DNA of 64,000 nt from Nocardioides caldifontis (lineage in GTDB: Bacteria; Actinomycetota; Actinomycetes; Propionibacteriales; Nocardioidaceae): the NCBI RefSeq assembly GCF_008087345.1, contig NZ_VHIB01000011.1, positions 1-64,000 on the forward strand, read 5' to 3'. Positions 22,597 to 24,357 of the stretch are shown piece after piece. Under the pieces are notes generated by a model. That model was not told the origin of the DNA. It saw nothing but the letters and a program-made list of their open reading frames with translations, and made no database searches. Positions within the stretch are counted from its first letter, which is position 1. Every line of letters begins with the position of its first letter. The translations under genes were made by a program, and so were the position numbers.

Positions 22597-23910
22597 GTGG
22601 ACATGGGGACGCCGGCAGGAGCGGGCGCGGCGGTGGCGGGCCGGAGGCCACGGGTCGACCGGGCCTGGCTGGTCGCCGCGGTCACCTTCCTCGTCCTGCT
22701 GGCCTCGGCCGCCTTCCGCTCCAGCCTCGGCGTGCTGCTGGTCCCGATCGAGGACGACCTCGGGTGGTCCCGCACCGACACCTCGTTCGCGGTGTCGCTG
22801 AACCTCGTGGTCTACGGCGTCGCGGCACCGTTCGCCGCCGCGCTGCTCGAACGGGTCGGCGTCCGGCGTACTGCCGTGTGGGCGCTGGTCCTCATCGCGG
22901 TCGGGTGCCTCGCCACCACCGTGATGTCTGCGCCCTGGCAGCTCTCCGCCCTGTGGGGGCTGGTGATCGGGGTCGCGACCGGCTCCGTGGCCCTGGTCTT
23001 CGGCGCGATCGTCGCGAACCGCTGGTTCGTCGCCCGACGCGGGCTCGTCGTCGGGATCCTCGGCGCCGCCTGGGCGACCGGGCAGCTGATCTTCCTGCCG
23101 CTGCTGGCCGCGGTCGTCGACGCCTTCGGGTGGCGCGCGGCGGCGCTCACGATCACCCTGGTCTGCGCGGCGCTCCTCCCCGCCGTCGTCGCGGTGCTGC
23201 GTGACCGCCCCGAGGACGTCGGGCTCCTGCCGTACGGCGCGGTGGCCGAGGAGAGCCGCGGGCGGGAGGCACCGCCGAGCGCCGCGGCCGCCGTCCTCCA
23301 CGCGGTGACCGTGCTGCGCGAGGTCCTCTGGACCCGGCCGTTCCTGCTCCTCGCCGGGACGTTCTTCGTCTGCGGCTGGACGACCAACGGCATCATCAGC
23401 AGCCACTTCGTGCCGGCCGCGCACGACCACGGCATGCACGCCACCACCGCCGCCGGGCTGCTCGCGGTGGTCGGCGTCTTCGACATCGTCGGCACGATCG
23501 GCTCCGGGTGGCTGACCGACCGGCTCGACCCGCGGCTGCTGCTCGGCGTCTACTACGGGCTGCGAGGCCTGGCGCTGCTCGCGGTGCCGGCACTCCTCGG
23601 CCCGCACGTCGACCCGCCCCTCCTGGTGGTCGTGGCGCTCTTCGGGCTCGACTGGGTCGCCACCGTGCCGCCCACCGTCGTCCTGTGCCGGACGGCGTTC
23701 GGAGTCGAGCGCGCCGGCATCGTCTTCGGCTGGGTGTTCGCCGCGCACATGATCGGCGCCGGCGTCGCGGCCGCGGCCAGTGGCGCGATGCGGGCCGCGT
23801 CCGGCGACTACACCTCGGCCTGGGTGCTCGCCGGCGCCCTGGCGGTGGCAGCCGCCGGCGCGAGCCTGCTCCTGCCGCGTCCCGAGCCCCGGGTCACGCC
23901 CGCGGTTTGA
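22597..23910 (+). CDS. MFS transporter
   Basis: A 437-residue membrane protein with 12 predicted helices in two halves of six, a conserved-type loop between helices 2 and 3 (ERVGVRRTAVW), and an equivalent loop in the second half (LTDRLDPRLL). It resembles the monocarboxylate/oxalate-formate-antiporter-like MFS branch. The GTG at 22597 has GGGAGGA 7 bases upstream; an ATG two codons later is possible. It is divergent from the ThuA operon across operator site F. It may carry a second substrate or a product of the island. Confidence 0.88.
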   Translation: MDMGTPAGAGAAVAGRRPRVDRAWLVAAVTFLVLLASAAFRSSLGVLLVPIEDDLGWSRTDTSFAVSLNLVVYGVAAPFAAALLERVGVRRTAVWALVLIAVGCLATTVMSAPWQLSALWGLVIGVATGSVALVFGAIVANRWFVARRGLVVGILGAAWATGQLIFLPLLAAVVDAFGWRAAALTITLVCAALLPAVVAVLRDRPEDVGLLPYGAVAEESRGREAPPSAAAAVLHAVTVLREVLWTRPFLLLAGTFFVCGWTTNGIISSHFVPAAHDHGMHATTAAGLLAVVGVFDIVGTIGSGWLTDRLDPRLLLGVYYGLRGLALLAVPALLGPHVDPPLLVVVALFGLDWVATVPPTVVLCRTAFGVERAGIVFGWVFAAHMIGAGVAAAASGAMRAASGDYTSAWVLAGALAVAAAGASLLLPRPEPRVTPAV

Positions 23911-23986
23911 CGAGGATCACCACCGGATTCCTGGCACGACCCCGGCGCCGTCTGTGACCATCGGAGGCAGGGCCCCGGGCGGGCCC

Positions 23987-24029
23987 CCGGACGAGCGGTG
24001 CCGTACCCGGTGTGCGACAAGACGGCGCC
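23987..24029 (+). promoter_or_regulatory. Guanidine-III (ykkC-III) riboswitch
   Basis: The 43 bases just before the SMR exporter show the ykkC-III layout. A CCGG-ACGAG start (23987-23995) pairs CCGG with CCGG at 24007-24010. GGTGCCGT (23997-24004) can form the pseudoknot with ACGGCGCC (24022-24029), and the GACAAG linker precedes it. This agrees closely with the known actinobacterial guanidine-III consensus as I recall it. The pseudoknot strand directly abuts the ribosome site AAGGAG (24030-24035), so guanidinium binding could change access to it. Confidence 0.85.
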
Positions 24030-24042
24030 AAGGAGTTGTCCC

Positions 24043-24357
24043 ATGGCGTGGATCGTGCTCGTGCTCTCCGGCGTGCTCGAGGCGGTCTGGGCGACCGCGC
24101 TCGGCCGCTCCGACGGGTTCAGCAAGCCGTTGCCCACCGGGATCTTCGCGGTCTCGGTCGTCCTGAGCATGGTGGGCCTCGCCTACGCCATGCGCGACCT
24201 GCCGGTCGGCACGGCGTACGCCGTCTGGGTGGGGATCGGCGCCTCGCTGACCGTCGTCTACGCGATGGCCAGCGGCGACGAGCCGGTCTCGGTGGCGAAG
24301 GTGGTGCTCGTCTTCGGGATCATCGTCTGCGTGGCGGGGCTGAAGTACCTCCACTGA
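24043..24357 (+). CDS. gdx: Small multidrug resistance family guanidinium exporter (Gdx/SugE)
   Basis: A 104-residue four-helix SMR protein starting MAWIVLVLSGVLEAVWA, with the essential Glu in the first helix at residue 13 in the SGVLEAVWATALG context. Gdx-type SMR proteins exchange guanidinium for protons. The ATG at 24043 follows AAGGAG by 7 bases. An upstream in-frame start would translate through the riboswitch and is rejected. A guanidine-III riboswitch in the leader gives the functional assignment strong support over a general drug exporter. Confidence 0.92.
   Translation: MAWIVLVLSGVLEAVWATALGRSDGFSKPLPTGIFAVSVVLSMVGLAYAMRDLPVGTAYAVWVGIGASLTVVYAMASGDEPVSVAKVVLVFGIIVCVAGLKYLH

Follow-up and report, generated by a model that had tools for sequence, protein, structure and literature searches.

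An SMR gene on this contig of Nocardioides caldifontis is preceded by a short leader that had been read as a guanidinium-sensing switch, and the question that the locus raises is whether leader and gene form a sensing and export unit. The window is the whole 64,000-nt stretch of DNA that was analysed, and all coordinates refer to it. Aptamer identity, pseudoknot covariation, gene type and conserved linkage were computed here. The reading that we favour, with a probability of roughly 0.9, is that a guanidine-III riboswitch activates the gene for a Gdx-type SMR guanidinium/H+ antiporter; this value was lowered from 0.92 to 0.90 because the Shine-Dalgarno sequence is not freed in the folding model described below.

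The Leader Contains a Guanidine-III Aptamer

A covariance-model scan of the window, the check named in the original prediction of a guanidine-III switch, gave a strong match to Rfam RF01763 (Guanidine-III) at 23967-24031 on the forward strand (63.1 bits against a gathering score of 36; E 1.2e-10), spanning the whole model length (positions 1-67 of 67). It is the single match to this model found in the 33-contig, 4.8-Mb assembly (E 2.0e-12 at assembly scale). Guanidine-I and guanidine-II riboswitches had no match in the assembly, and guanidine-IV was covered only within the window, through the scan against Rfam and insofar as Rfam includes that class. The leader and gene comprise the following features, with the helices named after Huang et al. 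2017 (PMC5696562).

23967-24031, +, Guanidine-III (ykkC-III) riboswitch aptamer (Rfam RF01763, 63.1 bits)
23970-23986, +, 5' hairpin of the aptamer, GGGCCC/GGGCCC with a 5-nt loop (sequence, Rfam structure line and free folds)
23987-23990, +, pseudoknot helix P1, 5' strand CCGG, pairing with 24007-24010 (covariation)
23991-23995, +, ACGAG, conserved core strand (conservation in 24 aptamers; triplex and ligand site according to the literature)
23997-24004, +, helix P2, 5' strand GGTGCCGT, pairing with 24022-24029 (covariation in 24 aptamers)
24007-24010, +, pseudoknot helix P1, 3' strand CCGG, pairing with 23987-23990 (covariation)
24022-24029, +, helix P2, 3' strand ACGGCGCC, whose last four bases can re-pair with the start region (covariation, folding)
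24030-24035, +, Shine-Dalgarno AAGGAG, adjoining the P2 3' strand, 7 nt before the ATG (sequence; putative role)
24043-24357, +, SMR exporter, Gdx (SugE) type, 104 aa (PF00893; alignment with PDB 6wk5, Gdx-Clo)

P2 consists of eight pairs between GGTGCCGT and ACGGCGCC, one of them G.U, and it crosses P1 to give an H-type pseudoknot. The CCGG/CCGG stem, the ACGAG, both pseudoknot strands and a ribosome site touching the pseudoknot are all present as had been claimed, the AAGGAG following immediately after the P2 strand. The interval originally given for the unit, 23987-24357, is correct at its end, where the stop codon finishes, and wrong at its start, since the aptamer begins 20 nt earlier and the 5' hairpin had been omitted. 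The aptamer ends 11 nt before the ATG at 24043, in a 5' UTR position ahead of the Gdx-type gene. Of the five ACGAG columns in 24 aptamers, four are invariant and the remaining one, the C, has a conservation of at least 90%; this core strand forms part of the triplex and ligand site (PMC5696562). Judged by its sequence, the leader of the SMR gene contains a complete and well-formed Guanidine-III aptamer, and aptamer and gene together are an ordinary instance of a pairing that is common in this well-known class. The remark that the site is easily missed is apt for gene-first annotation only, since a standard Rfam scan detects it.

The aptamer shares with the guanidine-III riboswitch of Thermobifida fusca the two-helix H-type pseudoknot, the ACGA core strand, the proximity to a ribosome binding site and the location before emrE-type genes (PMC5696562, PMC2864571). 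The ribosome site of T. fusca lies 16 nt from the aptamer (PMC5696562), whereas here the Shine-Dalgarno sequence directly follows P2; here also a 5' hairpin precedes the pseudoknot, as in Rfam's model.

Covariation of the Pseudoknot

Compensatory changes in the relatives track RNA pairing. Across P1 and P2 in 24 aptamers of relatives, 8 of the 12 pairs are changed on both sides, a count inflated by the relatedness of the loci, and 89.9% of cells are paired; none of 500 shuffles was as high and slid versions were 30.9-47.7% paired. P2 alone has both-side changes in six of its eight pairs and 84.8% of its cells paired, with mismatches toward the outer end. P1 has its full four pairs in 162 of 166 aptamers, compared with a mean of 114.3 and a maximum of 126 when the strands were re-paired; these 166 are the aptamers readable by pattern, of 187 tried, and come from two sets of related loci between which duplicates are possible.

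The P1 variant CCCG/CGGG occurs in 15 of the 166. By eye, CCCG/CGGG replaces CCGG/CCGG in family f19 (L193, L196-L198, L203, L205, L207-L210, L212, L213, L215, L216 and L219), whose aptamers often have a TTGCTA-like box right before the core, apparently without a 5' hairpin.

The Start of the SMR Protein

The site had also been described as lying inside a plausible upstream coding extension of the exporter. A rival reading would have the SMR protein begin at GTG 23998 and the aptamer-like stretch be coding sequence. The open frame exists (ORF 23998-24357, in frame from the GTG) and takes in only the 3' half of the aptamer, but its phase varies among the relatives. Over 94 SMR loci, a set that includes L087 and in which the starts of L003 and L065 are in-frame GTG codons, the distance from aptamer core to start is spread over the three phases (36, 31 and 27 loci), and 18 loci have an in-frame stop. 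Most homologues align from M-A/S-W at ATG 24043, and the compensatory changes obey RNA pairing, making a start at the GTG extraordinarily improbable. The extension is no conserved coding stretch, so that the SMR protein likely starts at ATG 24043.

A Probable Gdx-Type Exporter

The predicted protein matches PF00893 with 71.1 bits (cut-off 23.7; E 1.2e-19). Its best PDB match is Gdx-Clo 6wk5 (E 4.1e-19), and its four PDB matches comprise Gdx-Clo sequences at 4.1e-19 and 1.4e-18 and EmrE sequences at 2.3e-4 and 3.6e-4, with 8vxu taken for a Gdx-Clo variant because its sequence is near-identical. Like the Gdx-Clo/SugE guanidinium-H+ antiporters (6WK5), it is an SMR protein of 104 aa in which E13, W16, S42, Y59 and W62 are aligned. 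We take Y59 to have a role at the substrate site. The other four residues, all present in the alignment to 6wk5, have substrate-site roles described in PMC7695847, where W16 is conserved in Gdx proteins and replaced by Gly or Ala in Qac proteins. The gene type had been named correctly at the outset, although by the NCBIfam rule the protein is a relative of SugE and not a SugE equivalog, its NF008512 score being 84 bits where 126 are required; all 21 NCBIfam SMR models listed stayed short of their cut-offs.

SMR proteins overlap in substrates (PMC7695847), which would leave room for a guanidine-III fold that has taken up another ligand and controls a Qac-type drug exporter. This is very improbable given that the aptamer core agrees with the Rfam consensus, that W16 is present and that the protein is much closer to Gdx-Clo than to EmrE. 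The gene product very probably exports guanidine as a protein of the Gdx type, and a gene that annotation would otherwise label a generic drug exporter can be predicted with confidence to serve guanidinium export under guanidinium control.

Upstream of the unit is an MFS gene on the same strand, ending at 23910, and downstream a convergent gene for a PF03458 membrane protein. Among candidate genes for guanidine breakdown, the assembly has one of the arginase family at another place, and no match to urea carboxylase exceeds the cut-off.

Linkage of Aptamer and Gene in Relatives

The aptamer is present in 24 of 58 genomes, own genome included, and an SMR match lies directly downstream in 18 of these 24 loci. 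A small membrane protein of 82-90 aa follows it in five (L009, L014, L019, L022 and L024), and in genome G014 (L005) the first codons read MAWLILV yet the SMR match is absent, so that the gene may be broken. Among 80 homologues from named genomes, the best 80 of at least 573 confirmed, a model built from the 24 aptamers places an aptamer immediately ahead of the gene in 77 (E <= 0.01); two of the 80 were already among the 24 loci (L091 is L004 and L134 is L021), and L069 is a weak member of the 77, at 35.2 Rfam bits against 36. The three close Gdx homologues without an aptamer among these best 80 are L076, L084 and L130. Twelve remoter SMR homologues (L043-L054, 38-53% identity) had no guanidine riboswitch at the Rfam gathering score, and their best E with the custom model was 0.16. 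In L084 a TGA stands directly before the start and is, by eye, the end of the preceding gene.

When genomes were drawn from across the class, 116 of 246 had a match at E 0.001, with 110 over the cut-off. We read 88 of the 122 listed matches, the omitted ones being mostly same-family rows and the weakest, and the gene after the aptamer encoded an SMR protein in 76 (L208 counted among them), a small membrane protein in three (L156, L174 and L194) and something else in eight, L145 being unreadable. Five of these eight look alike and by eye resemble speB-type ureohydrolases, Pfam giving nothing on a 90-aa piece of one, and another has an isochorismatase-like piece (E 2.5e-5; 24.9 bits, below the cut-off of 27). 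Both emrE and speB were reported for the guanidine-III motif in 2010 (PMC2864571). The proteins after the aptamer in L220 and L221, two of the eight, resemble each other, and a 90-aa stretch from one of them drew nothing in Pfam.

The two small membrane proteins examined both match the CBU_0592 family NF047864 (53.7 and 44.2 bits; cut-off 25) and no credible Pfam family, and the literature searched yielded no mention of 'CBU_0592'. Members of this family are possibly an uncharacterised guanidinium-related membrane protein. At two sites, G052:C48:30929-31551 and G022:C1:1459440-1460062, one aptamer is followed by two tandem SMR genes, which suggests a paired exporter.

The 5' End of the Transcript

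Among 99 loci, 33 show a TANNNT box that starts 6-16 nt ahead of the aptamer, compared with a mean of 5.5 and a maximum of 14 in letter-shuffled sequence and with counts of 2, 1, 1 and 3 in four other intervals of equal width. Measured from helix P1, such a box occurs at -45 to -14 in 81 of 166 aptamers (shuffled mean 21.2, maximum 30); these -10 ranges were set after a first look at 24 loci that are themselves among the 99. The boxes between -45 and -14 fall into two groups, at about -35 to -26 and -15 to -11, and the latter by eye fits the f19 loci, which have a promoter-like box where others have the 5' hairpin. The relatives have poor -35 boxes (6 of 33). This clustering of -10-like boxes just before the aptamer indicates that many of the mRNAs probably begin at the aptamer. 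The window lacks a TANNNT in this position, where it offers only the following, and a start at the aptamer would hold for its copy by extrapolation.

23956-23961, +, weak -10 candidate GACCAT, in the position of the TANNNT of many relatives (by eye)

A Predicted OFF Hairpin and a Proposed Switching Mechanism

The P2 3' strand could take part in a second, competing structure.

24026-24048, +, predicted OFF hairpin, 24026-24030 pairing with 24044-24048 and 24032-24034 with 24039-24041 (folding)

In the mechanism that we propose, transcription would start at the aptamer's first base or close to it, leaving a leader with hardly anything besides the aptamer. When guanidinium is absent (OFF), bases 24026-24029 of the P2 3' strand would pair with the start and second codons, and the GGA of the Shine-Dalgarno sequence with the UCC ahead of the start. 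Guanidinium would stabilise the pseudoknot, bringing the strand back into P2 and freeing the start region, and the exporter would be made until guanidinium drops. According to Huang et al. (PMC5696562), in whose 2017 text the switching mechanism of the class is 'less well established', the ligand probably acts by destabilising competing structures and exposing the ribosome site.

The OFF hairpin has a predicted energy of -9.6 kcal/mol as an isolated segment, and in free minimum-energy folds of the leader at four lengths 24026-24030/24044-24048 and GGA 24032-24034/UCC 24039-24041 are paired. The start-codon U and G are predicted to be unpaired at only 0.00-0.25 in the free fold, and the A at 0.88-1.00, compared with 0.72-0.99 for the start-codon bases when the ON fold is forced (P2 and the 5' hairpin, with P1 reserved). 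The corresponding values for the Shine-Dalgarno GG (24032-24033) are 0.04-0.40 when P2 is forced and 0.00-0.21 in the free fold. The ON state of the model would open the start codon and not the Shine-Dalgarno sequence, where the residual pairing is 3 bp, which argues against simple Shine-Dalgarno unmasking in the window's copy. The nested folding model omits the pseudoknot, so ON and OFF energies are not comparable.

Evidence from relatives comes from a re-pairing test on 86 loci, in which the P2 3' strand gave a mean of -8.31 kcal/mol with the linker and start of its own locus and -7.49 (sd 0.21) when re-paired with those of other loci (0 of 5000 permutations, which only partly allow for the relatedness of loci). 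The 86 are what is left of 101 loci after removal of two duplicates, L087 (motif unread), five with another gene, three for start or linker length (L003, L021 and L065) and four identical segments. For 28 representatives below 75% identity the means were -8.85 and -7.73 (20 of 5000). Control segments showed no gain, whether coding (3785 of 5000; representatives 4968) or upstream (3485 of 5000; representatives 1172). For the start segment of the window, folding with the strands of other loci (mean -9.26) is almost as good as with its own (-9.6), so the support owes more to the family than to the window's copy.

Of 94 aptamer-SMR loci, 55 have the triplet GTC immediately ahead of the start; it stands there in none of the 12 SMR homologues without an aptamer and at 9 of 130 Shine-Dalgarno-preceded candidate starts of the window, these last being mechanical ORF starts, several per gene. 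GTC has a possible pairing partner in a near-invariant GAC (24021-24023), the last two bases of which are the first two of the P2 strand. The window has CCC in place of GTC, and there the start codon itself would be used. We regard these results together as moderate evidence for an OFF hairpin common to the relatives, and the comparison supplies concrete pairs to mutate.

Once bound, an aptamer at the 5' end may in addition shield the mRNA from RNase E. It might even act mainly in this way, the ligand-bound pseudoknot blocking RNase E scanning and affecting mRNA stability with little effect on translation; a review reports such protection for the guanidine-III class, citing Richards and Belasco 2021 (PMC12186494), and the -10-like boxes of relatives put the aptamer at the 5' end. 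We consider a main role in stability unlikely, because the P2-start pairing signal and the immediate Shine-Dalgarno sequence favour a translational part, and both effects may operate together. We offer as a tentative generalisation, which we hold to be somewhat less likely than not, that a single expression platform serves the guanidine-III switches of actinobacteria: their mRNA would begin at the aptamer, the P2 3' strand would be common to the pseudoknot and to a start-masking hairpin, commonly via GUC before the start, and the ligand would trade one pairing for the other. Only these details of mechanism may add something beyond the known class, and earlier papers may already contain them.

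Two aptamers among the relatives are unusual in layout. That of Gordonia effusa (L073:902-991) has about 26 additional nt between GTACCCGG and GACAAGAC. In Arthrobacter sp. RIT-PI-e (L075:862-921) a weak second match lies just upstream of a good one, scoring 23.3 bits with the custom model (E 0.0027) and 24.6 bits with Rfam, below the cut-off of 36, and is perhaps a decayed tandem copy.
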